Below, piece by piece: positions 2,048-59,793 of a DNA stretch of 64,000 nt; position 1 is the first letter of the stretch, and each line of letters opens with the position of its first letter. A program made the translations under genes and the position numbers. The DNA lies in the NCBI GenBank assembly GCA_963971225.1, contig OZ020270.1, positions 70,138,432 through 70,202,431 of the forward strand. Direction: 5' to 3'. This stretch comes from Melieria omissa (lineage: Eukaryota; Arthropoda; Insecta; Diptera; Ulidiidae). Under the pieces are notes generated by a model, which ran no database searches, was not told the DNA's origin, and was given only the letters and a program-made list of their open reading frames with translations.

Positions 2048-2900
2048 TCAATACTGGAAGAGACTATTTCCTCCTATTTTCTCAAAGAACATTTTGATTC
2101 TTGCGAGATCAATTTCAGACAAATGAGTACTCTGTAATAGTTCCTTGCCTAGTACTTGCTTTCTTGCATGAACTAAGGCCGGGCATTCAGTGATCAGGTG
2201 TATGGAAGTCTCGTCATCCTCCATACAGAATCTACATATTTCACTATCTGTTAGTTTTAGACGGGTCTTATGTTTGTTTAGCAGACAGTGTCCGCTGATT
2301 ACCCCTTTCATGAGTTTTAGTTCCGCAAGAGAAATTTTGCATTTCTGCTCGAGTATCGCGGGTAAAAGGCCTTGGTACATTCCATGCCACTTGATTTTGA
2401 CCATCTTGCATTTGCTTTGATCAAGTATTCTTGCTTAATACAGCCTTTGTAATGAGATTTGCTGTCACCTAAGATCGGTTCGGGTCCAAATGGCCGCTTT
2501 CCAGCTCCCTCCCTTGCCAATCTCTCTGCGTCCTCATTACCATCATAGCCGCAATGCGCTGGGATCCAGTGTATTATCACCCGATTCCCTGTTGACAGTT
2601 GTTGGAGAAGATTAGCTGTCTCCCATACCAACTTAGAAGTAAATGTCGACGCGTGCAAAGCTCTTATTGCGGCCTGACTGTCTGACATTATGATAATCCT
2701 TTTCCGATGAGGGTGAAGGTTCAAGATTTCTATGGCACACTGATTGATAGCACAGACTTCCGCTTGGAAGACGGTTGCTAAACTACCAATGCTGACTGGC
2801 ATTTGGGTACTGGAACTGTATATCCCAGATCCTGTGCCTTCTTCAGTCTTGGATCCATCAGTGTACCAGATAATGTCATCACAGGTAAGACTGATTTTTT
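2048..2900 (-). pseudogene. LINE-1 RNase H domain and C-terminal zinc motif
   Basis: The minus strand reads WYTDGSK (first acidic residue, about 2850), FQAEV (Glu, about 2765), MSDSQAAIRAL (Asp, about 2690) and IPAHCGYDGNEDAE, the usual order of an RNase H with its four acidic positions. A frameshift near 2360 passes the frame to a second ORF (2404-2048). That ORF carries GHCLLNKHKTRL and a CRFC...H...C zinc motif near 2220, typical of LINE C-termini. It would remove the RNA strand during reverse transcription. It is non-functional as one protein because of the shift. Confidence 0.85.
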
Positions 2901-3150
2901 AATTGTCCCAGTCTACTCTGTTAGGTATATGTGTCTTATATTTCCTGTTAAAGATATGTAGCGGAGGCATTGAGTCAAGAGGCACCCAAAAGCTTCCGTC
3001 CGCTTGCATGTAGATTCTGTGGTATGAATCCACTATGCATCAGTCTATGTGTACTAATAACCGCAGTCGGTTAGGTCCAACGGCAAAACTCCCAATATAA
3101 TATTGAGAGCAGCTGTTGGTGTTGTGCGAAGGCAGCCAGTGATGCAGGAG

Positions 3151-4233
3151 TTAATTACTCTTTGCAACCGTTCCAGCCTGTTCGCAGTCGTTTTCTCTGT
3201 GGTTTTTTTTCCACCATACTATCGCCCCATAGGTAATGATGGGGAGGATGACTAGGGTGTAGATTTTTTGAAGCGGTTTCGTTCCCCAGTTTTTGCCACA
3301 GATTCGTTTACAAGTCCAGAGTGCGTTGCCCGCCTTCTGAATAGTACGATCTATGTGAGGTTTCCAGTTCAATTTACTGTCTAGAGTTACCCCAAGGTAT
3401 TTGGCTTCTTTTAAGAAGCCTACATCTTTTCCAAAAACCTTTATGGGTCTCAGGTTATATTTTCTTTTGAGTGTGAACGGTACGAAGATTGTCTTATCAG
3501 GGTTTACTGATAGACTCTGCTGGGCGCACCAATTTTCTACAATTCTTATTGCTCCCTGTAGTAGATCAGAGACGGTCTGCCCGTATTTGCCTCTAACCGC
3601 AATAACTAGGTCATCAGCATAGGCAATAACGTCGTAACCTCGATCCGAAAGGATGCGGATTAATCCGTTTATGACCATGGACCAGAGTAGAGGAGATAGT
3701 ACGCCCCCCTGCGGACAGCCCCGGACCGTCCTGGCTAGGATCTTGATGCCATTTAAGCTGGATTCTACTAGCCTGCTTTTGAGCATCATGGAGATCCATC
3801 TTGTAAGTGCAGTTGGCACTTGAAATACCTCTACAGCCGATCCTATAGCTTCATAGGTGGTGTTGTTGAAAGCCCCCTCTTTGTCTAGGAAACCTACTAA
3901 ACAGATTTCTTTCTCGAAAAAGGATTTTTCGATTTTGCTGACCAGGGCAGATAGGGCTGTTTCGGTAGACCTGCCTTTTCGGTAAGCATGTTGGTGTGCA
4001 CTTAGAGGATTTCGGATAAGGACTAGAACATTCACTGTTCTCCATACCTCCGGAATGTAGCCGAAAGCCAACTGCATGTGTATAATTTCGAAAGGATGGG
4101 CAACAGACTGTCTAGTCTTCTTTGTAACAGCGCCGGGAAGATTTAATCCTTTCCCGCCGCCTTGTACGGGGAGAACGTTCCTATCGCCCATTCTACAATC
4201 GAGCGTTCGCAGATGAGATTGGCCAATCTCCAA
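3151..4233 (-). pseudogene. LINE-1 reverse transcriptase domain with internal deletion
   Basis: The 360-codon frame contains RT blocks in order: HQHAYRKGRSTETAL, FLDKEGAFNNT, GCPQGGVLSPLLW and YADDLVIAVRG (active site intact, about 3620), then LGVTLDSKLNWKPHI in the thumb. Between VNVLVLIRNP and LSAHQHAYRK the blocks that normally follow the fingers (PKPGK...RPISL) are missing, a clean in-frame loss of roughly 40 residues. The frame overlaps the end of the endonuclease ORF at 4143-4233, so one frameshift lies there. This is the polymerase of target-primed reverse transcription in this family. Confidence 0.88.
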
Positions 4234-5303
4234 TCTTGCCTACTGGGACAGTGTGACTGCCAACTGCTATGGGTATTATGATCGGGGTCGTCTATTATTT
4301 CTGCAGCTGCTGCAATCTTTTGCAGCCTACAGCCTGAGTTCGCGTTATTCACGTCCTCGCAGAAGCGTCTAAAAGATTCCCTCTTGGCTTTCTTTATTTC
4401 CTCATTGTAATTGGTGAGAGCATCGGAGTAGGTCTGCCAGTCGTTATTCCGCTTGGCCCTATTGAATAGTTTCCGTACTCCCTTCCTTAGCGCGCTAAGA
4501 TGACTGCTCCACCAAGGTGTCTGTCTTTTAAAAGTTTTAGTCTTTAAAGGACAGTTTTTTTCATAGGCGTTCACTACGGCTTCCTGCAGTTTTTTAGAAG
4601 CCCTGTCAGTCTGTCTTTTTGCCCTAAAGGACACGGCAGTCAGTGACTTGTCACCTAACCTAAACCTTATATGTCTATGGTCAGAACAAGAGGGCTCTTC
4701 GGATACTCGCCAATTGCTGACAAGTGATTTCGATAGAGAAGTAGTTAGGGTGAGATCTAGCACCTCTTCCCTGGTTCTAGTTATGAATGTCGGACTATCT
4801 CCTACGTTACATATACTTAAGTCTAGTGAGAGTATATAGTCGAATAGTGACTCACCTCTAGCGTTGGTATCCGTGCTTCCCCAGATAGTGTGATGGGCGT
4901 TCGCGTCACACCCTAGGACCAGCTCCAGACGATTGTCCCTAGCATAAGCAACAAGCTGTTCTGCTATCGTCGTGGGACATTCAGGTACATCTCCAGGGAA
5001 GTATGCTGACGCTATGATCAGTTCTCTGGAGTTGCAACTGATCTTGGCCGCGCACAGATCTGGCGTAACAAAATCTGTCAACGGGAAGAAAGAAGTGCCA
5101 GTAAACACAATACAGGTTCTAGGCCTATTAGTAGACTGACACCACAGTACATTACCTGACTGCGAGAGGCCCAGGATCTCATTGTTGGTGCTGGTCCACG
5201 GTTCCTGCACCAGGGCTATGCTAGGACCGTAGGTGTTGATGGTCCTAGCCAAGAAAGCTGACGCTGCCTGCGCCCTATGGAGATTGATCTGAACAATCTC
5301 CAT
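4143..5303 (-). pseudogene. LINE-1 apurinic-type endonuclease, ORF2 start
   Basis: I place the start at the ATG at 5303-5301, giving MEIVQINLHRAQAA, the usual first strand of LINE endonucleases. It lies one base after the ORF1 stop (TAATATG), a stop-restart arrangement. Visible motifs are QEPW (about 5200), CDANAHHTIWGSTD (about 4900) and SCSDHRHI with the catalytic SDH near 4690. Downstream is the WWSSHL linker, then PYKAAGKD leading into RT, where the frame ends at 4143. The longer frame up to 5477 overlaps ORF1 and is not needed. Confidence 0.85.
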
Positions 5304-5304
5304 A

Positions 5305-6614
5305 TTATTCGTGAGGGGCTTTGGTGTGAGTACCTGCACGCTTGCCTCCTCTACCCCTTGTCTGCACCCGTTCATTGCTGCTCGGGGTTTTTGCAGACTT
5401 ATCCAAACGGCCCAGTTGTTTGGACGGATTATCCTTTCCAGACAATTGAGTCTTTCGGGCGGGTTTAGTTGAGGCATGCTTTACAGGTCTCACTGTTGAC
5501 GGTGTTGGCGTTTTGTCGCCAGTTCTGTTTTCAGTCCTTTTAGCGGTCCGGTCTGTCCGTACCACTAGGGCTGCCTGTCGACTTGTGGATGGTCTTTCGT
5601 CATCCACCCTGATTTGGGGAGTCGTGGTTGTCGTCGTCCCACCTTCACTGGTCGTTGACGGTTTTGTCCCTTGCTCACGCCGCACCCTGAACTGAATCCG
5701 TCCCAGCTCAAAGAAAGGGAGGTCGTTCAGTTCGGCGAGCAAGCGGGTCGACACATCGTCAATGGCCAGCGTCAGCGCCGATCCTTTTGCCATAGCAGTT
5801 CTGTTCATTACTTTCCAGTTGCCTGTGGGTAATGAGCGGTTCTGCATTCGAAGCCTTCGAAGTATTTCATCGGCCGGGAGGGAGCAACCAGGAAAGAAGG
5901 CCGAGGCAATATTGGGTTTGGGAATATCACTTCCCTCCACCAGCTTCAGCTTTTTGTTCCCTGGTTGAATTTTCGGTGTCACCTCTTTTAGCCATTTCTT
6001 CGATGCCTCATCGGCACAGTTCACGGAGGAACTAGGAGCAGCCTATAAAGCGGATTTGAGGACCATCAACGGCGAGCTTATGCAGTTCCTCCTTGATGGC
6101 CTTCTCGACATCCTTCTGCTCCTCCAGATCGAGATGGACAGTCGGATACTCTTCTGATACCCAATCTGATTGCAGCAGCAGCTTCTGCGTAGGATGGACC
6201 TATCTTCATCCTTTTGGGAGCGGGTTGTGCCGCTTCCTTCTTGCTACTGCTGCCGTCCGTCTTTGTCTCTACGTTGTCCTCAAGGACCACCTTCAAAGCA
6301 ACGTCGTACGGCTTACCATCCGCTATCAGCTTCCGAAGCCTCTTCTTTTGAGAAGTCGTCAACCGCTTTCTCTTAAGTGAGACGGCTTCGGTAGCTTCCA
6401 CCAGCGACGGTAATCCGCCCGATATGGCTCCCTCGGCTACCAGAGTGGACACCGTGGTCAGGTTTGATTCTGAACAATCACTGTCCATGTGACCTTGAGA
6501 CGGTTGGTCTCTCCAACCACCCTTGGTCTGGTTTTCAGCGTCACGCTGAGTATTGACGTCGGTCTGTCCTCCCTCCTTCCCATCCGAGGCGAGTTTTAAA
6601 GTGCTCATCATCAT
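5305..6614 (-). pseudogene. LINE-1 ORF1 (gag-like nucleic-acid-binding protein), broken
   Basis: There are two frames. 6614-6078 is a polar N-terminal part with basic KRKRLTTSQKKRLRKL, starting MMMSTLKLAS. 6024-5305 includes CADEASKKWLKEV, NWKVMNR and a Thr/Ser/Lys-rich tail. The second part resembles the DUF4780-type domain seen in ORF1 of these insect LINEs; the same family member in the second LINE (42711-43982) is intact. The translation between 6170 and 6024 needs two frameshifts. It probably coats the RNA as an RNP component. Confidence 0.75.
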
Positions 6615-7066
6615 CTGGTTCTTTGGCCACCTACTCCGACGAGGCGTTTCGGTGGCCTATGCTGATATAGGGGAAAGGGAAAGGTCAGCCATGACAGAGC
6701 CCCGTATCATGGTAAGTCCTTTATACTATCCGAGGCGGACCGGTATCGGATAGGTTCCGTTAGAATACAGCCGGATACCCCTGGCTGCAAACCATCCAAT
6801 GGGCACGGATCACATGACACCCTGGATTAGGGGGGGTAAGGATGTTGGTAAGAGAGGATAATAGCAGGTGGGAAGAATGGAGGGGAGAGTGTGACTAGTT
6901 AGCCAGCCACCCGGGAGGAGACATGACCACACCCGGGTGGGTGTTTCCAGCGGCCACCACAAGGAGGTCTAGTCACATTCCGCCAGCCCTTTAGCCACCA
7001 TTTGCCGTCGGACATCCAACCGCTAGCGGTAGCCAAACGGTAGGCAGAAGACCGCCATGAATCGGT

Positions 7067-27805: not shown

Positions 27806-27920
27806 CGGCTTAAATGTTATCAATCTATTTAAGTTTACAATAGAACAATTTTCATTATGAGTTTAGTTTTGTTGAGAAAAACAAATTTCGGCTTAATTTT
27901 ATCAATCCATTTAAAATTTA
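27806..27920. repeat. ~82-bp tandem repeat, left part
   Basis: Unit begins CGGCTTAA(T)...ATCAATC.ATTTAA and includes CAATTTTCATTATGAGTTTAG. One and a part units occur here and continue after LINE-4 at 29805-29938. They lie in the gypsy-2 leader between the primer site and gag. Confidence 0.7.
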
Positions 27921-29804
27921 AAGAAAAAAAAATACCGGGAGGAGAGGAAGAAAGAGAGGTGCCTTTTTAGACGCAAGAAACGGGAGCAAGAAAGGCGCGA
28001 GCGTGAGGAAATCGAGGAGTGCAGGAGCAGGAATGACGCCCGAAAATTCTTCCAAAAAGTTAAGCGTTTCACGGAAGGATTTAAGCCTGGGGCATCTTCT
28101 TGCAGAGACGAAAACGGGGATCTGGTTACGGATGCGCAGGGTGTGCTGAGGTTGTGGAAGGAGCACTTCACCAAGCTGCTCGCAGGCGACGAAGGGACCA
28201 ATACCGCCTGTGGTGAAGATGTCCAGATGGTACCAATCGACGACGACGGTGTGGATGTGCCACTGCCCACCCATGACGAGGTCCGGGTTGCTATCCAGCG
28301 ACTCAAGAACAATAAAGCTGCAGGGCCGGATGGGCTACCAGCTGAATTGTTCAAGGCCGGCGGCGGTGAGCTGATTGGGTGCATGCATCAGCTCATTTGC
28401 AAAATATGGCTGGAGGAGCGAATGCCCAACGATTGGAACGTCAGTGCCCTTTGTCCTGTGCTGAAGAAAGGCGATCCAACAATATGCGCCAACTACAGGG
28501 GTATAAGCCTACTTCCCATTGCATACAAGGTCCTGACGAGCGTACTATGTGAAAGATTAAAGCCACTCGCCAAGGCGCTGATTGGACCTTATCAGTGCGG
28601 CTTTAGACCTGGTAATTCCACCATCGACCAGATATTCACTCTACGCCAAATCCTGGAGAAGACCCATGAGAATCAAATCGATACACACCATCTCTTCATC
28701 GATTACAAGGCAGCATTCGATAGCCCGATAAGGGATCGCCTATATGCCGCATTGTCTGAACTTGGTATCCCTGCAAAGCTCGTGAGACTTTGCAGAGCGA
28801 CGTTGAGCAATATGCGCAGCTCCGTCAAGGTTGGAAGTGACCTCTCCGACCCCTTTGATACCGTTCGAGGTTTCAGACAGGGCGATCCTTTGTCCTGCGA
28901 CCTCTTCAACTTCACCATGGAGAGTGTTCTGCGCAAGGCCGGTGTACATCGTAATGGCACAATTTTCAACAAAAGTGTCCAGCTCCTTGCCTACGCTGAT
29001 CACATTGATGTCATCGGACGTAACAAGCGAGATGTCACCGCTGCCTTTGCGGCTATCGAAAGAGAATCTGCCAAAATGGGTCTGGTGGTAAATGAGGGCA
29101 AAACGAAGTATATGCTGTCTACATGCAGGGACTCGCAGCGGCTAGGGTCTCACGTCGAGGCCGACAGATATACTTTTGAAGTTGTCAAGGAATACGTCTA
29201 CCTTGGCACCTCCATCAACAGCAGCAATGATGTCAGCCTGGAGATAAAGAGAAGGATAACTCTTGCCAACAGGTGCTACTACGGTCACGGTAGGCAATTG
29301 AGAAGTAGAGACCTCTCTCGACCGACAAAACTTGCACTCTATAGGACGCTCATCTTGCCCGTGCTCCTCTATGGCGCTGAAGCATGGACAATGACACGAA
29401 ACGACATAGCGGCCCTTGGAGTGTTCGAGAGGAAGGTGCTTCGCAAAATCTTCGGCCCTGTTCGTGTTGGTGACGACTATCGTATACGAACCAATAACGA
29501 GCTGTATGAGCTGTATAAGGACATGGACGTAGCGCAGCGAATAAACATCCAGCGGCTACGCTGGCTCGGTCATGTCTGCCGCATGGACGACGAAGCTCCG
29601 GCGAAAAAGGTGTTCGATGCGATGGTTGGAGGTCGACGGCGAAGAGGGAGGCCGTGTCTCCGGTGGAAGGACCAAGTTAAAGAGGCCCTGTCATCTCTTG
29701 GTGTTACCAACTGGAGAAGGCGCGCGCAAAGCAGAGGCGCCTGGAGAGAAGTTTTGCGGCAGGCCGTAACCCGATAACGGGTTGTTATGGCCAGTTAAGT
29801 AAGT
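27921..29804 (+). mobile_element. RTE-like LINE-4, 5' truncated
   Basis: Inserted inside an 82-bp tandem unit; ATTTAAAATTTA (27909) and ATTTAAACTTAC (29805) are the approximate target duplication. The 5' part with endonuclease is missing. The 3' end is TTAAGTAAGT. Confidence 0.8.
27926..29777 (+). pseudogene. LINE-4 reverse transcriptase, active-site mutant
   Basis: One uninterrupted frame from the truncation point. It has a charged helix (RRKKREQERREREEIEE), RFTEGFKPG, LKNNKAAGPDGLPAELF, CANYRGISLL, QCGFRPGNSTIDQI, LFIDYKAAFDS and FRQGDPLSCDLF. The active site reads LAYADHIDVIG at about 28985-29010: the second Asp of YADD is His (CAC for GAC). Thumb and C-terminal LYGAEAWTMT, RLRWLGHVCRM and GRRRRGRPCLRWKDQ follow, stop at 29775-29777. 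The frame is otherwise intact, so the copy is young, yet it cannot polymerise and lacks endonuclease. Confidence 0.88.
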
Positions 29805-30764: not shown

Positions 30765-31292
30765 CGAGGGCGGGTCAATAAATCCGTGACTTTTTGAATT
30801 TCCCGCCTCTTAATTGAAATGGCAATACTGCTCCCGTCAACAGTCATCTGTCAGTTGACTCTTGTCAAAAATTGAACAAGCTGCGACATTTAGACTACCG
30901 CTGACTGAGAAGAAAATGGAAAAAACTGAATTGCGTGTGCTCATTAAGCATTATTTTTAGTTTCCATCGCAAAAATCCATGAATTGGGCTACGAATTGCT
31001 CCCTCATCCCGCCTATTCACCCGATCTAGCCCCAAGTGACTATTTCTTGTTCCCAAACTTGAAGAAATGGCTCGGCGGAAAGCATGAGCACACGAAATTC
31101 ACTTTTTTCCATTTTCTTCTCAGTCAACGCGATAGTCTGATATTAACGGCTGTCAAAAACAAACTAAATGTCGCAGCTTTTTCAGTTTTTGACAAGAGTC
31201 AACTGACAGATGACTGTTGACGGGAGCAGTGTTGCCATTTCAATTAAGAGGCGGGAAATTCAAAAAGTCACGGAGTTATTGACCCGCCCTCG
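30765..31292 (+). mobile_element. irritans-type mariner MITE with long inverted arms
   Basis: Ends CGAGGGCGGGTCAATAAATC (30765) and its mirror (31292), flanked by TA (30763-30764, 31293-31294). The inverted arms extend about 200 bp each. Between them is only a transposase scrap, HELGYELLPHPAYSPDLAPS (about 30978-31040), holding the third catalytic Asp region. The right arm is an inverted copy of the 5' region, as comparison with 49248-49805 shows, so the element arose by an inversion-type rearrangement. Confidence 0.85.
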
Positions 31293-32151: not shown

Positions 32152-33442
32152 CAGGGGTTTCTAACAAGAGGTGTTATTTTGAATCATCCGGTATTTCGGT
32201 AGCTGTCACTTTTGAAGCTTTTATTCTTTGACATTTGACAAGTAGAAACTACGCTATTACTAAAAATGGAACGATACACGCTTCAACAACGCATTGAAAT
32301 TATTAAAATTCACTACAAAAATGGTGACAATCTTGCAGTCACAGTTCGCAAAACTAAAGCATGTTTGGGTCGTCGTGAAGCACCTTGTCGGACCGCAATA
32401 CAGAAATTGGTGGAAAAATTCGTGCTGTTGGGACAAGTTAGTGATGTGAAGAATAAAACCCGTGCACGTCGCTCAAGAACAACTGAGAATATTGCTGCTG
32501 TAGCCCAAAGTGTTGAAGAAAACCCAGGTTTGTCGATTCCTCGTCGTTCTTTGGAATTGGGCATTCCAAAAACGTTATTACACCGTATTTTGCATAAAGA
32601 CTTGGGTCTTAAGGCTTATAAAGTTCAGTTAACACAAGAACTCAAGCCGACCGATCATCAACAACGTCGTGTCTTTGCTGACTGGGTCCTTGAAATGCAT
32701 GAAAATGATCCGGAATTCCATCGAAAAATCATCTTGAGTGATGAGGCCCATTTCCACCTCAGTGGCTACGTCAACAAGCAAAATTGTCGCATCTGGGGCT
32801 CGGAAAACCCAAGAATTATTGTTGAGAAGCCTCTTCATCCTCAACGTGTGACTGTTTGGTGCGGTTTATGGTCCGGCGGGGTCATTGGAGCTTACTTTTT
32901 CGAAAATGAGGTTGAATCAACAGTTACGGTGAATGCATTGCGCTATCGAGAGATGATTAATGATTTTTTATGGTCGGAGTTGGATGGTATTGATTTGGAC
33001 AACGTTTACTTTCAACAAGACGGCGCTACGTGCCACACAAGCAACGAAACCATTGCTCTTTTACGGGAAAAGTTTCCGGACCGTGTTATCTCTGGAAGAG
33101 GTGATCACAATTGGCCACCGAAATCTTGTGATTTAACAACTTGCGACTTCTTCCTTTGGAGCCACGTGAAAGATAAGGTGTACGCCAACAGCCCAGCGTC
33201 GATTCAAGACCTCAAAGATAGAATTCATGAGGCTATCGAGGACATAGGGCAGCCACTTTGCGATTTGGTTATGGAAAATTTCATGAAAAGGATACGGTCC
33301 TGTAAGCGTGGTCACCACGACCATATGGCTGATGTTGTTTTTCATTATTAACGGCATACATTCCTGTTTGTTATGAAATAAACATCCGATCATTTATCTC
33401 AAAAAATGGCATTTTTCTTTGAATACCAAAATAACACCCCTG
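32152..33442 (+). mobile_element. DD41D (rosa-type) Tc1/mariner element, coding-intact
   Basis: TA at 32150-32151 and 33443-33444. Right end reversed is CAGGGGTGTTATTTTGGTAT; left end is CAGGGGTTTCTAACAAGAGG followed by GTGTTATTTTGAAT, so the left TIR carries a ~13-bp interruption. One full-length transposase lies between. 1291 bp, about the usual size. Confidence 0.88.
32266..33351 (+). CDS. DD41D Tc1/mariner (rosa-type) transposase
   Basis: 361 residues from ATG 32266, no stop or frameshift. The N-terminus (MERYTLQQRIEIIKIHY; later TENIAAVAQSVEENPGLSI) holds helix-turn-helix DNA-binding segments. The catalytic core has IILSDEAHFHL (first Asp, residue ~160), YFQQDGATCH (second Asp, ~251) and LTTCDFFLW (third Asp, ~293). 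Exactly 41 residues separate the second and third Asp, the hallmark of the DD41D group named from Ceratitis rosa. It cuts and pastes the element at TA. The usual Pro in the LTP-DFFLW block is Thr here. With both ends at TA it may be recent; the interrupted left TIR could still impair mobility. Confidence 0.92.
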   Translation: MERYTLQQRIEIIKIHYKNGDNLAVTVRKTKACLGRREAPCRTAIQKLVEKFVLLGQVSDVKNKTRARRSRTTENIAAVAQSVEENPGLSIPRRSLELGIPKTLLHRILHKDLGLKAYKVQLTQELKPTDHQQRRVFADWVLEMHENDPEFHRKIILSDEAHFHLSGYVNKQNCRIWGSENPRIIVEKPLHPQRVTVWCGLWSGGVIGAYFFENEVESTVTVNALRYREMINDFLWSELDGIDLDNVYFQQDGATCHTSNETIALLREKFPDRVISGRGDHNWPPKSCDLTTCDFFLWSHVKDKVYANSPASIQDLKDRIHEAIEDIGQPLCDLVMENFMKRIRSCKRGHHDHMADVVFHY

Positions 33443-36394: not shown

Positions 36395-36504
36395 GTGTTG
36401 TGTAGGTAGGTAGGTAGGTAGTGGTGGCAGCTCTCATATGAGAGCTCACTTAGGCCAAGCTAGGCCCATTGTGGTACCACAGGATCTCTAACCCCTTTTT
36501 GTTG

Positions 36505-37749
36505 TTAAGATGTCTCGAACCAGCCCGAACCGGTGATGAAGCGTATTAGGCCCTTGGCGTCAACCTCCGATAAGTCCGCGAGGTTGGCTGTATGGTAAAA
36601 CCCTAGATGTTTCTTCCGTTTCCTGCAAAGAGCGGGACAAGTACAAAGAAGGTGGAGAATTGTTTCTTCCTCCTCTATGTCTCTGCAGCTTCTGCAGAAG
36701 TCGTTGGCCAGGTGGCCCAGCCCTAATCTGGTAGCGTGGCTGCCAAGGATGCAGTGACCAGTGATGACTCCGACAACAACCCTGAGCGTGCCCCTATTGA
36801 GGTTTAGCAGACTTTTGGTGCGCTTCCAGTCCAGCTTTGGCCAGATCTGTTGCGCTGTCTTGCCTGTCTCCGAGGTTGCCCATGCATTGTTAGCGGGTTT
36901 TCTCATCGCTTCCTCTATCCCTAGCTTGCAGGTACTCAATGGAATACCTAAGCCGGCGAGTTCTGAGGATAGCTCCTTGGTCGTTCCTTGTCTAGCCAGT
37001 TCGTCTGCCCTGCAGTTCCGCGGGATATCTCTGTGACCAGGCACCCATATGAGTTGGATTTTAAGCTGCTCTGCCATCTCATCAAGAGATTTGCGGCAGC
37101 TGATCACTGTTTTTGATGTCAGAACATGATACCCTAGGGCCCTGATAGCCGCTTGGCTGTCAGAGAGAATGCTAATATCTCGCCTAGAGACACTGCCCTC
37201 TTTGATCCAATTCAGGGCAGCTTCAATGGCTGAAACCTCTGCTTGAAACACGCTACAATGGTCCGGCAGTCTAAAGGAGTAATTTATACTAAGTGAGTCT
37301 GAGAAGACGCCTCCACCCACAGCTCTGTTTAACTTGGAGCCGTCGGTGTAGATCTGGTATGAGTTCCCTATTAGGGATGCTGAGCTTTCCTCCCAGTTGT
37401 TCCTATCTGGAATGGTGCTAGTGAACTTTTTGTTAAAAAGGAATTGGGGTGGTGAAGAATCCAGTTCCTCGAACTCCTTTAAGCGAGTAAGTATCCTGGC
37501 ATGTCCCTTGGTAGACTCCGACCATTGGCAGGTAGCCCGTAGTCTATGGCTTGTTATAGCCGCTGATTTCCTGCAGTGTAGGTCTAGCGGAATAAGGTGA
37601 AGCAGGGTTGGCGTTGTTCTAAGAGCGCCCGTGATGATGACGCAGGCTGCCCTTTGAACTTTCCGAAGGTGTTGGAGGAGCAGTGTTTTTTCCAAAGCGT
37701 TCCACCATATCATATATTTGTAAACCCAGTGCGTCATGTTTGGCTTCAA
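36505..37749 (-). pseudogene. LINE-5 thumb region, RNase H and C-terminal zinc motif
   Basis: One 414-codon frame. After RT-tail sequences (LRKVQRAACVIITGAL) it has QIYTDGSKLN (first Asp, about 37345), VFQAEVSAIEAAL (Glu, about 37240), ILSDSQAAIRAL (Asp, about 37160), VPGHRDIPRNCRADELAR (Asp, about 36995) and CRSCRDIEEEETILHLLCTC (zinc motif, about 36680). The RNase H looks catalytically complete. It is separated from RT by a frameshift at about 37750. Confidence 0.88.
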
Positions 37750-37752
37750 ACC

Positions 37753-38605
37753 CTAGGTTTTCCCCAGTGCCTTTTTGCAGGTGTATAAGGCAATCGTTGC
37801 CTTTTTGACCCTATTGAGGATGTTTGGTTTCCAGCTCAATCTCTTGTCAAAAATGATTCCAAGGAATTGTGCCTCATTCTTGAAAGGGATCTCCGTGTTG
37901 TTTAATGATAGAGGAGGTATGGGTGGGGGTTTGTACTTCCTCGTGAAGAGGACAACCTCTGTCTTCCCAGGGTTGCTTCCTAATCCTCGACCAGTAACCC
38001 AGCCGTTGACCTTGTTTAGCAATACCTGCATTAACATAGATCTCTGATCGAGTTGAGAAACTTGCCCGAGACAGTGAGAACTATATCTGCATACGCCATC
38101 ACTTTGCCGCAACCCCCTCCCAGGGACTGGAGCAGTTCGTTAACTACCAGGTTCCAAAGGAGGGGGAGAGGACTCCGCCCCTGCTCACCCCTCTCGAGGT
38201 AGAAGAGTCGCCCAGTTCAGCGCAGATAATTCTGCTCTGCAGAAGATTATCCACCCAGTTCACCAGGCTACTCTCCACACCAAGCCTGGCGAGCGCGCCC
38301 GTGACGGCTGTAAACTCGACGTTATTGAAAGCCCCCTCTATGTCCAGGAAAGTTGCTAAGGTGTATTCTTTGTGTTCGAGTGATTTCTCGATCGTGTGGG
38401 TCAATGAATGTAGAGCTGTATCTACAGATTTACCCTGAATGTAGGCATGCTGACTATTTGAAATCAGATCCTGCCTAATCGTTTGTCGTAAGTGCAGATC
38501 CAGCAGTCTTTCTAATGTTTTTAAAAGAAATGAAGAAAGGCTTATGGGTCTGTAATCCTTAGGGCTAGTGTGAGAACTTTTGCCCGCTTTGGGGATGAAA
38601 ACCAC
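37753..38605 (-). pseudogene. LINE-5 reverse transcriptase, duplication copy 1 side
   Basis: Minus strand: MVFIPKAGKSSHTSPKDYRP, HAYIQGKSVDTALHSL, FLDIEGAFNNVEF, GVSRGGVLSP and, near 38100-38085, the active site reading AYADIV: one Asp codon of YADD has been deleted (copy 2 keeps both). After GKFLNS the frame is broken at 38032-38038 by TAACATA, which looks like a mariner excision footprint (TA + 3 bp + TA). The following frame (38037-37753) carries LGIIFDKRLSWKPN. Confidence 0.88.
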
Positions 38606-39169
38606 CCGTAATTTGCGCCAGTGCTCTGGTATGTAGTTTAAGCCAATACTGGCTGAGAATATTGAATTGAGGAGTGTTAAGATTAACGGTCCGGCATGTT
38701 GGAGTTGTGCTGGGAATATGCCATCTGGTCCTGGTGATTTAAACGGGTGGAAACCGGCAATTGCCCATTTAATTTTTTCAATCGATACAATACTATTTAT
38801 AGGGGCAACACAGTTAGTGCTGGCCTGAGTTCCTAGCAGCCTGTCATGTTGGCTGATCGGAATGTGGGTATTTGTAAGAAGTGCAAGTGCTTCACCTTCT
38901 GATGATGTCCAAGAACCATCGGGGTTTTGTAAGGCACTTGGAATAAAGGAGGAAGAGGCAAGTAGTTTCCTGAGTCTAGCAGTCTCGGAGACACTTTCAA
39001 TATTACCGCAGAAATCGCTCCAAGAGCTTCTCTTGGCCTCTCTGAGGCTTTTCTTATAGGACCTGAGGGATTCTTTATAAAAATCCCAGTCTTCTTCAGT
39101 TTTTGTCCTCCTTGCTCTATTAAAAAGAGTCCTAGAGTGTTTCCTAAGCTCCCTAAGATCATGGTTCCA

Positions 39170-39475
39170 CTAAGGGGGTTTGTATTTCCCTCTGGTCATG
39201 TACGGGCAGGCGAGGTCCTGAGCCTTAGAAAATGCTAGAGTGAGTTGATTAACAGCCGATTCTAGCATCGTTTGGGTGTCTATTTCAGAGATTTGAATCG
39301 TTTTGATGTGCCTATCCACTGTGCGGGTAAATAACTCCCAATTTGTTTTCCTGCGGTTGTTTACTGGTTTGACCCTCCGGGGGTCGCTGTCAAGAGTGAA
39401 CTCTATATACCTATGGTCGGAAAAAGAGTGTTCGTTGGGGACCCTCCAGTTCCTAACCCTATCGGCTATATTCAC
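39170..39475 (-). pseudogene. LINE-5 endonuclease C-terminal part, copy 1
   Basis: Reads RVRNWRVPNEHSFSDHRYIE, with the catalytic Ser-Asp-His. The rest of the endonuclease (CDANAHH, LLVCNIGRTPT) is upstream across the SINE at 39885-40015. Downstream 39162-38833 is the EN-RT linker frame. A further copy is at 41397-41702. Confidence 0.8.
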
Positions 39476-39530
39476 AGAGGCAAGGGTGAGGTCTAGAACT
39501 TCTTCCCTATTCCTGGTTATAAAAGTGGGA

Positions 39531-39881
39531 AAAATAATAATAATAATTAATAATAATAATAATTGATTGGCACGACAGCCCGCTTACGCGAGACTAAGGC
39601 CTAGCTTCCCGCAACCATCCGTGTTGTGCGTGTGAATTTTGTACGCGGGTGGAAGGGACCTACAGTTTTATGCCGGTTCCGAACGGCAGGTTGGGAGCTT
39701 TTTCATAGGCAATTTTTACTCTCAGAGGTTTGCCATTTCCAGCTGAGAGGACAGCCACCGAAAGAGAAAACGAGTTTCCCGTTATTTTTTTAGGTGTTAC
39801 TACATGCAGTATTCGATCTTGCGTCGCTCTGCATGCGACTCGTTGGACCGCGCACTAACCAACTGAGCCACGGCGGCTGCT
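39531..39881 (-). mobile_element. tRNA-derived SINE, copy 1
   Basis: On the minus strand the head is GCAGCCGCCGTGGCTCAGTT, with a pol III A box (TGGCTCAGTTGG, about 39869-39858) and a B box region (GATCGAATACTGC, about 39817). An unrelated body follows, then an (ATT)n tail at 39531-39565. GTGGGA at 39525-39530 and 39882-39887 is the target duplication. It interrupts the LINE-5 endonuclease codons after GRTPT. Confidence 0.88.
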
Positions 39882-40128
39882 GTGGGAGTGCGCCCTATAT
39901 TGCACACAAGAAGGTTTGTGGTAGAAATGTAATCAAAAAGTGACTCACCTCTTTCGTTGATGATATCTGTGCTCCCCCAGATACAGTGGTGAGCGTTCGC
40001 GTCGCATCCAATCACGAGAACGGTGTTGGACTATGCGGCTTCAGTGACCAGATTCCTGACCGGATCCGGTGGTGGAGGCTCTGGATGGTCATGAGCCATG
40101 TAGCTGGACGCGATCCAGTGGCATTGTT

Positions 40129-40261
40129 GTTGTCGAAAGATTGGAAAAGCGTTGGAATGATTGTATCTCCCTAAAAGGGGACTATGTTGATGAATAAAAA
40201 CGAATTTTGGCAAAAAAATGTGTTTTAATTAGTTAGTCACACACATTATTGAACGAAGTGT
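40129..40261 (+). pseudogene. Mariner 3' terminal fragment at the duplication junction
   Basis: Reads the end of a mariner transposase, RLEKRWNDCISLKGDYVDE followed by stop (about 40140-40195). Then comes a 3' UTR and an inverted end finishing GAACGAAGTGT next to TA (40262-40263). No matching 5' end is present. It lies exactly between the two tandem copies. Confidence 0.85.
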
Positions 40262-42355
40262 TAGATCTCTGATCGAGTTGAGAAACTTGCCCGAGACAGT
40301 GAGAACTATATCGTCTGCATACGCCATCACTTTGCCGCAACCCCCTCCCAGGGACTGGAGCAGTTCGTTAACTACCAGGTTCCAAAGGAGGGGAGAGGAC
40401 TCCGCCCCTGCTCACCCCTCTCGAGGTAGAAGAGTCGCCCAGTTCAGCGCAGATAATTCTGCTCTGCAGAAGATTATCCACCCAGTTCACCAGGCTACTC
40501 TCCACACCAAGCCTGGCGAGCGCGCCCGTGACGGCTGTAAGCTCGACGTTATTGAAAGCCCCCTCTATGTCCAGGAAAGTTGCTAAGGTGTATTCTTTGT
40601 GTTCGAGTGATTTCTCGATCGTGTGGGTCAATGAATGTAGAGCTGTATCTACAGATTTACCCTGAATGTAGGCATGCTGACTATTTGAAATCAGATCCTG
40701 CCTAATCGTTTGTCGTAAGTGCAGATCCAGCAGTCTTTCTAATGTTTTTAAAAGAAATGAAGAAAGGCTTATGGGTCTGTAATCCTTAGGGCTAGTGTGA
40801 GAACTTTTGCCCGCTTTGGGGATGAAAACCACCCGTAATTTGCGCCAGTGCTCTGGTATGTAGTTTAAGCCAATACTGGCTGAGAATATTGAATTGAGGA
40901 GTGTTAAGATTAACGGTCCGGCATGTTGGAGTTGTGCTGGGAATATGCCATCTGGTCCTGGTGATTTAAACGGGTGGAAACCGGCAATTGCCCATTTAAT
41001 TTTTTCAATCGATACAATACTATTTATAGGGGCAACACAGTTAGAGCTGGCCTGAGTTCCTAGCAGCCTGTCATGTTGGCTGATCGGAATGTGGGTATTT
41101 GTAAGAAGTGCAAGTGCTTCACCTTCTGATGATGTCCAAGAACCATCGGGGTTTTGTAAGGCACTTGGAATAAAGGAGGAAGAGGCAAGTAGTTTCCTGA
41201 GTCTAGCAGTCTCGGAGACACTTTCAATATTACCGCAGAAATCGCTCCAAGAGCTTCTCTTGGCCTCTCTGAGGCTTTTCTTATAGGACCTGAGGGATTC
41301 TTTATAAAAATCCCAGTCTTCTTCAGTTTTTGTCCTCCTTGCTCTATTAAAAAGAGTCCTAGAGTGTTTCCTAAGCTCCCTAAGATCATGGTTCCACTAA
41401 GGGGGTTTGTATTTCCCTCTGGGCATGTACGGGCAGGCGAGGTCCTGAGCCTTAGAAAATGCTAGAGTGAGTTGATTAACAGCCGATTCTAGCATCGTTT
41501 GGGTGTCTATTTCAGAGATTTGAATCGTTTTGATGTGCCTATCCACTGTGCGGGTAAATAACTCCCAATTTGTTTTCTTGCGGTTGTTTACTGGTTTGAC
41601 CCTCCGGGGGTCGCTGTCAAGAGTGAACTCTATATACCTATGGTCGGAAAAAGAGTGTTCGTTGGGGACCCTCCAGTTCCTAACCCTATCGGCTATATTC
41701 ACAGAGGCAAGGGTGAGGTCTAGAACTTCTTCCCTATTCCTGGTTATAAAAGTGGGAAAAATAATAATAATAATTAATAATAATAATAATTGATTGGCAC
41801 GACAGCCCGCTTACGCGAGACTAAGGCCTAGCTTCCCGCAACCACCCGTGTTGTGCGTGTGAATTTTGTACGCGGGTGGAAGGGACCTACAGTTTTATGC
41901 CGGTTCCGAACGGCAGGTTGGGAGCTTTTTCATAGGCAATTTTTACTCTCAGAGGTTTGCAATTTCCAGCTGAGAGGACAGCCACCGAAAGAGAAAACGA
42001 GTTTCCCGTTATTTTTTTAGGTGTTACTACATGCAGTATTCGATCTTGCGTCGCTCTGCATGCGACTCGTTGGACCGCGCACTAACCAACTTAGCCACGG
42101 CGGCTGCTGTGGGAGTGCGCCCTATATTGCACACAAGAAGGTTTGTGGTAGAAATGTAATCAAAAAGTGACTCACCTCTTTCGTTGATGATATCTGTGCT
42201 CCCCCAGATACAGTGGTGAGCGTTCGCGTCGCATCCAATCACGAGAACGGTGTTGGACTATGCGGCTTCAGTGACCAGATTCCTGACCGGATCCGGTGGT
42301 GGAGGCTCTGGATGGTCATGAGCCATGTAGCTGGACGCGATCCAGTGGCATTGTT
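40262..42355 (-). repeat. Tandem duplication copy 2 within LINE-5
   Basis: Second copy of 38037-40128. It keeps the intact YADD codons (about 40320-40309), the RT frame 40832-40368, the linker 41389-41060 and endonuclease 41702-41397. Its far end continues into the unduplicated start of the endonuclease. Confidence 0.93.
41758..42108 (-). mobile_element. tRNA-derived SINE, copy 2
   Basis: Same insertion as copy 1, duplicated with its host LINE, with the same GTGGGA borders (41752-41757, 42109-42114). It counts as one insertion event. Confidence 0.88.
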
Positions 42356-42631
42356 AATTGTTAGGGAGATGGAGACCAAATCGTCGTTGCTGAAATTAGG
42401 GAGCAGATACGCATTTAGTGATTTCTTCACAAGGATACAGGATCTTGGTCTACCTGTGCTATTAGCATGGACCAGCCTGTAGTTTGTCGCTCCCAATCCA
42501 CAAACCTTGTTGGCTACAAGCCATGGTTCTTGGATGAGAGTGATGTCGTCCCCGCCTTTAGAAAGGCGGAGGAGTAGTGCAGCCGAAGCTGCTTTAGAGT
42601 GGTGGAGATTTATCTGAACTACTCGGACCAT
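42239..42631 (-). pseudogene. LINE-5 endonuclease N-terminal part
   Basis: Starts ATG at 42631 (MVRVVQINLHHSKAASAALL), then LIQEPW and YRLVHANSTGRPRSCI. After NNATGSR the frame shifts (about 42350) and CDANAHH reappears in another frame at 42230, with a stop between. ORF1 ends 80 bp upstream. Confidence 0.82.
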
Positions 42632-42710
42632 TGTCTGTTTCGCTCATTTCCACCTCCACCACAGTAGCGTCGAGGTCCTCGTCGGTTTCGGCGAGAAGCT
42701 CGGATTTCCT

Positions 42711-43982
42711 TCAGAAATTCCCGAAAGCCGTGGCCATCTCCGATCCCGAGGAGATTGATTCCGCCCGGGATAGGCGACGTAACGGCTTCGAGGAAGACGG
42801 CTGGTTATCTTTCGCCTCGTCTGCCAGGGTAGTCGTCTCGGCTGGCAGCCCCTGCGGGCCACTTTCACCGGGGTCTGTTGTGGCTGGCTGCCCTTGTTGG
42901 CCGCCTTCGCCAGAGTTCGTCAAGGCTGGCAGTCCCTGAGGGCCACCTTCGCCGGTTTCGGTCTGTTCGTCCTTTCTGTACACCCTCAGTTTGATATGTC
43001 CAAAACCGAAGGCCACGACACCATTGGGCCTTGATAGGTGCTCAAGGAACTCCTTGTTCACAATAATAGTGGCACAACGAGACCCCTTGAGCTCCTCCAA
43101 TTTGGCAATTTTCCAGTTGTGCGTGGGTATCTTCGGGTTAGACAATTGGAGTGTCTCGAGGACCCTTGCCGGATCCGTGGGTTTTAGTGGGATCCAGGCT
43201 CTGGTCCTTGGTCTGCTGGGGATCGATTCCCTGGGTACTACCTCAAGTTTAGCACCCGGCCAGATCGCACCAGTCCTGGCTAAGGCCATGCAGAAGATAT
43301 CCAGGGCCCTCTTGTCTGCACACGCAACCAGCTTAACGTGGCCTTGATGCCAGCCGCACATCTGGTATTGTGGCACCGGGCCCGGATTCTCCTTTATGAC
43401 GTCCAGGAAGATGTCGGCGAGGAAATCTTCCACCAACTTCCAGTTTGCGGGAGTGATACTTCCGTCAGGGTCGGAGCGGTCAACGACCGCCATCACGAGA
43501 CTGTGCATTAACACGTCGCTGTAGGTGGTAGCCGTTCTATGCGAGCTGCGCATCTTTTTGGCAGTCAGGGCCTCTTCCTCTGTAGAACGCTGCCTTTTGG
43601 CGGCGGTCTCAGTGATCGGTGCCCCGTCGAGTTTCGCTAACCTAGCGGTAGCCCAGGTAAAGGACTCTTTCTCTTTCTGAGTCCTGCGGTTCTCTGGGAT
43701 ACATTGTATCCGTTCGAGTACTCGCTTGGCACTCTGGCGCTCTCTGTAGCGGACTTTTGAGTCCTTTATATGTCGAGTGCTTGCTGCTACCAGAGCTCCG
43801 CCATGTTTGTTGCTGTTGCTGGACGGAGGTCCGGCTTTGGCAACCACAACGTTGCTGAGGTTAGCTGCAGCACTTATGTTTGCATTTTTTGCTGCGGAGG
43901 CAGAGCCTTGGCTTGAGATCTTCTGATCAACCAAGGATGCGCCTTTTTTGGCGGTGGGCGCTGGCTTGTCTGCTTCACCCAT
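42711..43982 (-). CDS. LINE-5 ORF1, gag-like protein
   Basis: 423 codons without interruption from ATG 43982 (MGEADKPAPTAKKG). A polar N-terminus with KRVLERIQCIPENRR leads to a folded region: YQMCGWHQGHVKLVACADKR, WPGAKLEVVPRESIPSRPRT, HNWKIAKLEELKGS and FGFGHIKLRVYRKD. This resembles the DUF4780-type domain of insect LINE ORF1 proteins. The C-terminus has three imperfect repeats of about 15 residues (GEGGPQGLPALTNS and variants; about 42960-42840). It probably packages the LINE RNA. It is the best-preserved ORF of this element. Confidence 0.75.
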   Translation of the reverse strand: MGEADKPAPTAKKGASLVDQKISSQGSASAAKNANISAAANLSNVVVAKAGPPSSNSNKHGGALVAASTRHIKDSKVRYRERQSAKRVLERIQCIPENRRTQKEKESFTWATARLAKLDGAPITETAAKRQRSTEEEALTAKKMRSSHRTATTYSDVLMHSLVMAVVDRSDPDGSITPANWKLVEDFLADIFLDVIKENPGPVPQYQMCGWHQGHVKLVACADKRALDIFCMALARTGAIWPGAKLEVVPRESIPSRPRTRAWIPLKPTDPARVLETLQLSNPKIPTHNWKIAKLEELKGSRCATIIVNKEFLEHLSRPNGVVAFGFGHIKLRVYRKDEQTETGEGGPQGLPALTNSGEGGQQGQPATTDPGESGPQGLPAETTTLADEAKDNQPSSSKPLRRLSRAESISSGSEMATAFGNF

Positions 43983-44188
43983 CCCCGGCCTCTGGTCCAG
44001 TCAGTGTTTGTGCGTTTGTTTTTGTTTTTGTATTTTTTGTTGTTTAGTCCATAATTGTGTCCCACGAGTGGCGGAGAAGGGGTGGTCCACCTGTGCAGAG
44101 ATCCGTGTTGTGTAACACTGCAGTTTAAAAAAAGAACCTAAATGTTGTTTAAGGAAGAATTAGTCTTGGTTTCTTTTAAATAAAATAA

Positions 44189-44520
44189 TAATAATAATTG
44201 ATTGGCACGACAGCCCGCTTACGCGAGACTAAGGCCTAGCTTCCCGCAGCCACCCGTGTTGTGCGTGTGAATTTGTACGCGGGTGGAAGGGACCTACAGT
44301 TTTATGCCGGTTCCGAACGGCAGGTTGGGAGCTTTTTCATAGGCAATTTTTACTCTCAGAGGTTTGCCATTTCCAGCTGAGAGGACAGCCACCGAAAGAG
44401 AAAACGAGTTTTCCCGTTATTTTTTTTTTTTAGGTGTTACTACATGCAGTATTCGAACTTACGTCGCTCTGCATTCGACTCGCTAGACCGCGCACTAACC
44501 AACTGAGCCACGGCGGCTGC
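44189..44520 (-). mobile_element. tRNA-derived SINE, copy 3
   Basis: An independent insertion of the same SINE: head at 44520 with TGGCTCAGTTGG, B box GTTCGAATACT (about 44456) closer to consensus than in copies 1-2, tail (ATT)n at 44189-44200. AAATAAAATAA at 44178-44188 and in 44521-44535 is the target duplication. Confidence 0.88.
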
Positions 44521-49247: not shown

Positions 49248-49805
49248 CGCGGGCGGGTCAATAAGTCCGTAACTTTTTGAATTTTCCGCCTCCTAATTGA
49301 AATGGCAACACTGCTCCCGTCAACAGTCATCTGTCAGTTGACTTTTGTCAAAAATTGAACAAGCTGCGACATTTAGTTTGTTTTTGACAGCCGTTAATAT
49401 CAGACTACCGCGTTGACTGAGAAGAAAATGGAAAAAGTGAATTTCGTGTGCACGGGTGCACACATGTGCAGTTTCCATGGCAAAAATCCATGAATTGGGC
49501 TACGAATTGCTCCCTCATCTCGCCTATTCACCCGATCTAGCCCCAAGTGACTATTCCTTGTTCCCAAACTTGAAGAAATGGTTCGGCGGAAAGAGATTTG
49601 CCTCCAATGACGAAGTCATCTCACAAACAAATGCCTATTTTGAAGATCTCGACAAATCATATTTTTCGGAAGGGATAAAAACACTGGAGAAACGTTGGGC
49701 TAAGTGTATAGATTTCAAAGGAGATTACGTTGAAAAATAAAATAACTTTTTATCTAAAAACCTGTGTTTCATTCAAAAAGTCACGGACTTATTGACCTGC
49801 CCTCG
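49248..49805 (+). mobile_element. irritans-type mariner, internal-deletion derivative
   Basis: Left end CGCGGGCGGGTCAATAAGTC and mirrored right end, TA at 49246-49247 and 49806-49807. It keeps the 5' UTR and the last part of the transposase: KIHELGYELLPHLAYSPDLA, PSDYSLFPNLKKW (third catalytic Asp) to FKGDYVEK and stop at 49740. Same family as 30765-31292 but not rearranged. Confidence 0.88.
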
Positions 49806-56535: not shown

Positions 56536-59485
56536 TATTATTTTCAGTTTATTTTATAATTAAATTGCTAAAATAAACTTAAGCTAAGGTACTAGCGGCT
56601 ATCGACCTTTTTTGTTTATATATTTTATAAAATGTTGCATAGCCTTAAGATGTTCATTAATTTATATACATTTTGTTTAGTAAAATTTGAAAGTAGGTCT
56701 GGTATGCATGGGAGGTTTAGATGTTCTTGTACTGCTTTGATGGTTTGGCATTCTTCTGTTAAGTGTTGTATTGACATTGTCTCCAGGTTGCAGAGTCTGC
56801 ATAGAGGCACATCAGTTTGTTCCATGAGATGCTGATGTGTAAGAAGAGTGTGACCTAACCTTAGGCGGGTGAATTTCTTCATATATATTCTTTTGCAGTC
56901 CTTGGGGAATAGAGTTGGGTTTCCTTCTATGTTGAATTTTTTATAGTGGTGTTGGTGGTTTCTCCATGTTTCTAGTCGCGAGTTTAGTAGGTAGTGCTTG
57001 AAATACCGATTTATGTCTGTTTTGGTTATAGTTTGTTGTAGATGCATTGGTGATTGACGTGCGAGGTTTGCTGCTCTGTCTGCAGCTTCATTGCCTTTGA
57101 TTCCAATGTGACTTGGGATCCACATTAGCTTTAGTTTGTGTTCGAATTGTATGAGTATATCGCGTATTTCAGTTATTGTGTTGTTATGGTGAAGGGTGTT
57201 GAAAATCGCTCGAAAAGCTGGGTACGAGTCCGTGCAGATGATGTGTTTGCCTTTTTGTATTTTGAGGATTTTGAGTGCAGACAAAATTGCCTCCGACTCT
57301 GCAGTGAAGATAGAGCAGTACTCTTCGAGTCGAAAAAGACGTAAAATTTGGTAGTTGTTGTCTACTATTGCATAGCTGACTCCCGTGTTTGATTTAGATC
57401 CATCCGTGTAGTGAAAATTCCAGTTTATAAAAGTGTGTCTTATTTGAGTGAAGTGTTTAAAGTATATGTGCGCGTTTGTGTTCTCCTTTTTTAGGTAAGA
57501 TAACTTGTCTATTATACTTTCTTTTTTGATGAACCAAGGTGGGTTTTTGGGCGTGTATTTTGTTTTTTGTTGATGTGTAATCCCACTGATTGTTGCAAAG
57601 TTTATGATGTTATGTATGGTTGTTGGATATTTAGGGTTAGTTTGTTTTTGTATTTTTGCAAAATTGTAAAAAATTGGCTTTTCTGTTGGGTTGATTATTT
57701 TGGTATATAAACTTGTCGTTGCTTTTTGTATTCTTTGTTCGATTGTGGGTAAGCCGGCCTCTGTTAGTATATTAATAATTGGTGTCGACGTGAAAGCTCC
57801 TATGCAGTATCTTACAGCTTCATGGTATATTGATTTTAATTTGTTTATGTTGGATTTCGTAGTACGACCGTATATTGCTAATCCATAGTCTAATTTAGAT
57901 AAAAGTATTGATTTTAAGATATTGATAATTGTGTTTGTGTGTGTGTTGCTATGAAAGCGCGAAAGGCATTTTATGAGATTGAGTCTGTTAGATAGATCTT
58001 TTTTAAGGCACTCAATATGGTTTGACCAGTTGTATTTTTTGTTAAATGTTAATCCTAAGATTTTTAGTTTGTCGACGAGAGCAAGTTTTGTGTTGTTGAT
58101 AGATATTGTTGCGGGATTGCAAGCTGTTTTCCTACAGATGTGCAACACTTTGCATTTCGTAGTTGATATTTTTGCTCCGTTTGTCAAGCACCATTCGTTA
58201 ATGTCTGAGCTTCGTTTGTTAAAGTCATTTTGTAAGTTTTGGCTTGGTCGATGTTTAGCAGTAATGTAAAGGTCGTCTGCGTATATACAGTGTTTGAATT
58301 GTTTGTGTTGAGCTACAATTTTGTTTAGTTTTTCGAAAGCAATTTGAAATAGTACAACAGACAATGGAGAGCCTTGTGGTATACCATTTTGTAAAGTGTA
58401 AGTTTCAGAGTAGTGACCGTTTAGTAGTACCCGAAATTTTCTGTTTTTAAGAAATGATTTGATGTAGGTAATTATTTTCGTGCCTACTTTCCATTCATGT
58501 AATTGGTTTAAGATTGTGTGTGTGCCAACCCTATCAAAAGCTTTTTCGAAGTCGATTGAAATCACTGATATATGGTTGCACGTTGATAAAGCTTTAGTTG
58601 TTAAGTAGTCTATGAAAAGGAGTGCATCTAAGGTATTTTTATTGTTTCTGTATGCGACTTGGTTTTGGGACAGTAATTTGTTTTTGTTCATAAACCATGT
58701 AAGTCTTGTTGCAATGATTTTTTCCATCAATTTGCTGACACAAGAAATGAGTGAAATAGGTCTATAGCCATCGACAGAATTGATTGGTTTTTGGGGTTTT
58801 GGAATTGGAACTATTGTTGCTGTTTTCCATTGTTGTGGGATGATGCTGGTCTGAAAAATTTTGTTGTATATGTTTAATAGTTTTCGTGTTGCTATGGGTG
58901 GAAGGTTTTTTAGCATTTTGTAGTTTATTTTGTCGTAGCCTGGAGTATTTCCTTTAAGTTTGCTTAACGCTGATTTTAGTTCGGTTAATGTTATGTCAGT
59001 TTCTATTTTGTGTGCATTTTTGTTAGGTACATAATTTATGTGATTGGTTACGTTTTGTGCGTATTTTAAGTTTAAAAATTGGTTGTCAAAGTTATTGTCA
59101 CTTGAATATGTGGCCCATTCTTTTGCTAGGAAATTGGCTATTTCGATAGGTTCAGTCAGTGAGTTGTTTGAACGGTCTATTATAATTTTTATGTTTTTTG
59201 AAGAATTATTTCCGTATAGTTTGTTTACATTTTGCCAAATTGTTTTTATCGGAGTGTTTGGATTCAAGGTGTTAGTGAATTCGAAGAATGATTTTCTCTT
59301 TTCGATTTTGGCGTACTTTTTGAACACTGCATTTGCTTTTTTGTAAGCAATTCTGTTATCACTTGTCGTGTTGTTTTTGAATTTGTGCCAGAGTATTTGT
59401 TTGTTTGCTCGCAACTCTGTTAGATTTTCATTCCACCAGTGGACCTTCTTTTTGTAATTGTTGTGCGCGTGAGTTACGTTACCTC
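56531..59485 (-). mobile_element. I-clade LINE, 5' truncated
   Basis: The minus-strand 3' end is (AATAAT)n at 56531-56545, typical of I elements. The 5' end lies near 59485, where endonuclease sequence stops and unrelated DNA begins, so endonuclease and ORF1 are absent. It separates gypsy-3 gag from the next LTR. Confidence 0.8.
56625..59485 (-). CDS. I-clade LINE ORF2 (RT and RNase H), N-terminally truncated
   Basis: An uninterrupted frame of about 950 codons. From the EN end (VHWWNENLTEL) it runs through LKGNTPGYDKINYKML, DGYRPISLISCVSKL, QVAYRNNKNTLDAL, ISIDFEKAFDRV, NGIPQGSPLSVVLF and CIYADDLYITAK (active site intact, about 58285). RNase H follows with FHYTDGSKSN (about 57415), FTAESEAIL, ICTDSYPAFRAI and WIPSHIGIKGNEAADRAA, then a CRLC zinc motif (about 56805). 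All visible catalytic residues are kept. The apparent start MLVGGVGW near 59516 lies in flanking DNA, so no native start exists and it needs helper functions to move. Confidence 0.9.
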
Positions 59486-59519
59486 CACCAAACCAACCAA
59501 CTCCGCCAACTAACATACC

Positions 59520-59793
59520 TGTAGACTACACCAAATAAATACACAATTCCCGCTTACTCCACAGAAACCTCCACATTGCTCCTCAAATTTCGAATTCCAT
59601 TCCCACAGTCACACATTTTACTAACCTTGCACTTTTCGTAACTCACCCAAAAGACAATAGAATGAGAGAAGACAAAAATTAATTTTAAGCAGTCAGTTGT
59701 AAATCGGAGTTAAAAGCGAATGGATCGTAATAAAGAATAAATCAAAATTGTGTTGTGTAAATATTATTGAAGTGAGATAAAAATCCACATAAA
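59520..59793 (+). repeat. 5' LTR (right part) of errantivirus-like provirus
   Basis: AT-rich, with AATAAAGAATAAATC near 59730, ending just before the primer site. The left limit is uncertain because of the adjacent LINE truncation. Confidence 0.6.

Follow-up and report, generated by a model that had tools for sequence, protein, structure and literature searches.

The 64,000-nucleotide stretch of Melieria omissa DNA analyzed here (contig OZ020270.1, positions 70,138,432 to 70,202,431 of the forward strand; hereafter the window, in whose numbering all positions are given) carries a long interspersed nuclear element (LINE) that encloses a fragment of a mariner transposon. The LINE lies on the minus strand, from ~44104 to 36405, its outer ends being those given in the preliminary description of the locus, and the part duplicated in tandem within it belongs to its second open reading frame (ORF2). 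Read from its 5' end, it comprises a single-copy 5' part (42356 to 44104) with ORF1, whose product contains a DUF4780 domain (Pfam), and the start of the endonuclease; two copies of the duplicated stretch, copy 2 (40262 to 42355) and copy 1 (38037 to 40128); and a single-copy 3' part (36405 to 38033) that encodes the end of the reverse transcriptase and RNase H (translation MQVLLNKVNGW...) and includes a target TA. The two copies align over 2095 columns at 99.475% identity; they differ by 7 substitutions, an indel of 3 nucleotides (nt) and another of 1 nt. The gap between them measures 133 nt (40129 to 40261).

The plus strand of this gap encodes VVERLEKRWNDCISLKGDYVDE followed by a stop codon. 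The mariner stub itself (40133 to 40261, ~129 nt, plus strand) contains a transposase C-terminus, ERLEKRWNDCISLKGDYVDE, its stop at 40195 to 40197, and an untranslated stretch ending in CACACACATTATTGAACGAAGTGT, with a 3' terminal repeat that finishes in TGT. Its last letters, ...GAACGAAGTGT, reach 40261 and are followed by a TA (40262 to 40263), read from the sequence as the mariner-LINE border of copy 2, and then by GATCTCT. The insertion lies at a TA: one directly follows the 3' end, and the same TA is found in copy 1, the flank on the other side of the stub having been lost. Because only the 3' terminal repeat is present, the stub is a mariner fragment and not a complete element. Twenty of the 22 residues of the stub peptide are identical to the C-terminal end of P0140, a 334-residue mariner transposase and the best match among 224 listed proteins compared (the best 120 each of a search with a chimeric bait, which found 227, and of a search with P0140, which found 3536). 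On this sequence evidence, the stub belongs to a mariner, as its transposase C-terminus shows. With ~21 codons left in the stub, a DD34D type is suggested through the P0140 match, in which the second and third catalytic aspartates, D237 and D272, are 34 residues apart. The stub resembles the P0140 (DD34D) family in these shared C-terminal residues and differs from P0140 in keeping just those ~21 codons and the 3' end. The 22-residue peptide retrieved no family in Pfam and no match in a sequence search of the PDB. Among the listed matches of P0140 are at least eight proteins of Drosophila palustris or D. subpalustris with 93-99% identity over 66-81% of P0140, and a ninth from these species with 66% identity over 80%; the eight close proteins lack the C-terminus and therefore have no direct bearing on the stub.

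The site in copy 1 that is the exact counterpart of the TA bordering the stub in copy 2 reads TA-ACA-TA (38032 to 38038), with five extra bases. Sequence and alignment confirm both observations from which the preliminary description started, namely that copy 2 begins at the TA at 40262 right after a mariner 3' end (the stub ending in TGT) and that copy 1 carries TA-ACA-TA at the equivalent position. Mos1 and Tc1 leave footprints of this form at the donor site, with TA, three terminal bases and TA. According to PMC7827188, the initial cut by Sleeping Beauty and mariner transposases falls three nucleotides within the element, so that 3-nt 3' overhangs remain on the donor; PMC3878927 gives the Tc1/mariner overhang as 2 or 3 base pairs, PMC2874221 gives the Sleeping Beauty footprint as TAG(T/A)CTA, and the footprint is attributed to end joining of the donor flanks (PMC7827188, PMC2874221, PMC3878927). 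The site in copy 1 is like these Tc1/mariner footprints, the Sleeping Beauty sequence included, in having a TA, three terminal bases and a TA where an element formerly stood. It is unlike them in being a natural fossil that lies beside a second copy of the target site still holding one element end. Since the stub ends in TGT, the terminal repeat starts with ACA on the 3' side, which bears out, as tested from that side only, the earlier expectation that this mariner does not end in other bases; from the 3' terminal repeat, the 5' end would likewise start with ACA. If both ends do, excision has two simplest outcomes, TAACATA and TATGTTA. The footprint reading depends on the 5' end also starting with ACA, because it is the 5'-end overhang that TAACATA retains. 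Taken together, these features point to excision as the source of the five extra bases, and TAACATA is very probably a mariner excision footprint, whatever the order of events.

The coding sequence of the LINE offers a measure of how many bases are extra at this site. The ORF2 query was pieced together from the parts of the LINE and found 671 relatives, the best 120 of which were compared; they are members of other LINE families with up to 50% identity, and the comparison was made at the protein level. The top relative, the full-length P0001 (50% identity over 100% of the query), has the domains RVT_1, Exo_endo_phos_2 and RNase_H, and through this match the element is assigned, on sequence, to LINEs that have endonuclease, reverse transcriptase and RNase H in ORF2. 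When 38034 to 38038 are removed, a single frame, ...NSIRDLMQVLLNKVNGW..., runs through the site and gives RDL/MQ, the slash marking the site. In a control in which stretches were deleted from 15 start positions around the site, removal of 1, 3, 4, 6 or 7 nt restored the frame at 0/15 each, and removal of 2, 5 or 8 nt did so at 8/15, 11/15 and 14/15. The choice among these lengths comes from the spacer between the YADD and NPxKT motifs: of the 93 listed relatives in which both are present, 91 have a spacer of 35 residues and the other 2 one of 37. A reconstruction of the empty site, made from the left flank in copy 1 and the right flank in copy 2, puts this spacer of the LINE at 35 residues, and 5 nt is therefore chosen over 2 or 8 by arithmetic. 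None of the 120 listed relatives has a residue inserted between the L and M of RDL/MQ, so the five bases are absent from the uninterrupted target in these families. A LINE consensus that itself carries TAACATA, the condition on which the preliminary description would have given up its reading, is accordingly ruled out at the protein level by these 120 relatives. Its statement that removing the five bases restores the reverse transcriptase frame stands locally, with RDL/MQ and the 35-residue spacer; frame restoration goes no further than this, since the LINE carries other disabling defects and is dead for other reasons too.

These defects are several. Stop codons are common to both copies, and each copy contains an insert of ~340 nt resembling a short interspersed nuclear element (SINE), detected by self-comparison at 39542 to 39880 in copy 1 and at the same place, 41769 to 42107, in copy 2. 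The LINE further has a frame error in the endonuclease and an error in the length of a C-run (minus strand), and in copy 1 one D of YADD is gone, a residue kept by 120/120 listed relatives. The common stops and the insert at the same place in both copies indicate that the LINE had lost its function before its two copies began to diverge. A third copy of the SINE-like repeat, ~95% identical to the inner two, lies just beyond the LINE 5' end at 44179 to 44520. A tRNA scan of the window returned 0 hits, which leaves a tRNA origin of this repeat without tool support. A second decayed LINE of similar kind occupies 2317 to 6656 (minus strand); its YADD to NPDKT stretch is uninterrupted, with a 35-residue spacer.

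At the far breakpoint of the duplication (42340 to 42360), which coincides with the frame error in the endonuclease, the endonuclease landmarks are 43 residues apart in 31/54 relatives (range 42-48), the 54 being those of the 120 listed in which the motif pair was found. The LINE has 125 nt here, 4 short of the commonest length among the relatives. Another footprint or site of a mariner was considered for 42355 and ruled out, the shortfall of 4 nt from the family length representing a small deletion; an alignment-based count at 42355 is uninformative, since the query carried a single X there. At the near breakpoint, LINE identity stops at 40128 (...GGCATTGTT), and mariner sequence is certain from about 40133-40135. 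The junction between LINE end and mariner interior, GTTGTC (40129 to 40134), includes a few bases that fit neither side clearly. Of 120 listed relatives, 114 carry G at the position of the first V in the stub. GGCATT may itself be read as codons for the G-I found before E-R-L in P0140, in which case the join could consist of up to six shared bases followed by added ones. The bases that fit neither side argue, short of proof, for a genuine end-joining junction.

Several points weigh against a footprint at the site in copy 1. The window holds no complete mariner of the stub's family, and the 5' end on whose first bases the argument leans is unseen: a search of the window for the 26-nt terminal repeat, allowing up to 3 mismatches, meets it at a single place, the stub. 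The first 18 nt of the terminal repeat matched 3 stretches in viral contigs and 7 in prokaryote contigs, none of which extended; these ten matches share between 3 and 10 of the 25 repeat bases that follow, which is the level of chance. The LINE relatives used for comparison belong to other families, with at most 50% identity, and were compared as proteins. Frame restoration is not selective by itself, as 2 or 8 nt would also mend the frame. Finally, small indels are not unique to this site: within ~130 nt of it, copy 1 also lacks 3 nt and differs in the length of a run. These neighboring indels suit an explanation in which a small, unrelated insertion or an old LINE variant supplied the five bases, and the mariner entered the adjoining TA by coincidence. 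Such a coincidence would have to produce the right length, the right letters and the right position at once. The 64,000 bases contain TAACATA or TATGTTA 18 times, or ~3 in 10,000 at a position specified in advance, and the absence of an insertion from all 120 listed relatives also counts against this explanation. It is highly improbable.

The order of events is a separate matter from the footprint itself. In an account built on the order of steps that the preliminary description had put forward, a mariner (DD34D) would have landed at a TA within the reverse transcriptase of the LINE copy; a tandem duplication would then have joined LINE position 40128 to the mariner interior, ~129 nt from the mariner 3' end, so that a second LINE copy follows the stub; and transposase would later have cut the complete mariner out of the first LINE copy. 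If the non-transferred strand was nicked some three nucleotides in from the element's edge and the flank ends were then joined, TA-ACA-TA would remain, and other copies of the LINE are predicted to show the empty site CTGCATTAGATC (plus strand). Mobility of a mariner needs both element ends, which is the basis for calling the stub stuck. This order accounts for everything seen but is not singled out by it, and it is proposed tentatively, at somewhat short of an even chance: it fits, as originally claimed, and an exchange between alleles or a false joining of haplotypes predicts the same letters. In the former case, excision would have come first in one allele, and unequal exchange or end joining with a mariner-bearing allele would have followed, the excised allele being cut at 40128 and the other inside the mariner; duplication and the copies bearing footprint and stub would then arise in one step. 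The 7 substitutions and 2 indels per 2095 columns are equally compatible with divergence between alleles and with changes acquired since a duplication, and four differences that could be polarized, two private to each copy, place private changes on both sides. Three of these were polarized against the third SINE-like copy and one, the loss of the YADD D, against the 120 relatives; four LINE substitutions that were looked up are mixed among the relatives. Judged from the sequence, the order cannot be read off from how the two copies differ. Nothing direct speaks against an exchange between alleles, which does demand a mariner/footprint heterozygote and breaks in two chromosomes; it is a possible course of events, and a doubtful one.

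An error of assembly would dispense with the duplication altogether: a footprint-bearing and a mariner-bearing haplotype of a single LINE would have been falsely placed end to end; the excision would then be real but heterozygous. A difference of ~0.5% is common for haplotypes, repeated elements such as mariner are frequent sites of assembly breaks, and run-length differences, the type to which one of the differences between the copies belongs, are a usual sequencing error. Against this, the window contains 0 N, and bases 40129 to 40132 suit neither parent well, resembling an end-joining junction more than an assembler overlap. A false joining is unlikely. Insertion followed by duplication and excision, exchange between alleles, and false joining of haplotypes all require excision of a mariner at the TA. 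A further possibility makes the duplication a by-product of excision: with the sister chromatid as template, one broken end would have copied ~129 nt of the mariner and then been misjoined 2.1 kb downstream. Rubin and Levy reportedly described in 1997 that abortive gap repair after Ds excision can leave one element end and a short inner stretch. The present stub is like such products in consisting of one element end with a short inner stretch, and unlike them in that downstream LINE sequence, rather than the opposite element end, is joined to it. A by-product of this kind would link footprint, stub and tandem LINE as connected repair events; the short stub speaks for it and nothing beyond that favors it, and it is distinctly improbable. 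A literature search that combined tandem duplication and a transposon excision footprint with sister chromatid and alternative transposition gave no match, and no absence from print is claimed.

Other mobile elements were noted in the course of the analysis. A search for a parental mariner, with P0140 as the query, gave 1 pattern match in viral contigs and 7 in prokaryote contigs, none of them confirmed. In plasmids, P0140 found 2 records, with 50.4% and 42.9% identity; the former, NZ_CP135988.1 (3593-4592), is filed as Proteus mirabilis and is possibly animal DNA. Within the window, a second mariner family is represented by two TA-flanked, mariner-like elements at 30765-31292 (528 nt) and 49248-49805 (558 nt), with a terminal repeat of about CGAGGGCGGGTCAATAA; the element at 49248-49805 retains an end of a transposase reading frame. 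The terminal repeat and 3' end of this family are 68% identical to the stub over 118 nt, and an 86-residue piece of it had no match in Pfam. An uninterrupted frame of 370 residues at 32239-33351 (plus strand), with a DUF4817 helix-turn-helix domain, looks by eye like a transposase. Two long open frames, of 966 residues at 56625-59525 (minus strand) and 620 residues at 27915-29777 (plus strand), likewise look by eye like other reverse transcriptase elements.

Mariner excision with a footprint is a well-known, ordinary kind of event and implies no new mechanism. The interest of the locus, a modest one, lies in a footprint and a broken mariner tail standing side by side in a dead insect retrotransposon. 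A footprint is usually guessed, since the element is gone; here, an element end at the same target site in the neighboring copy serves as a witness. The locus would thus be a clean natural example of a mariner excision repaired by end joining, together with a transposon end stranded by duplication.

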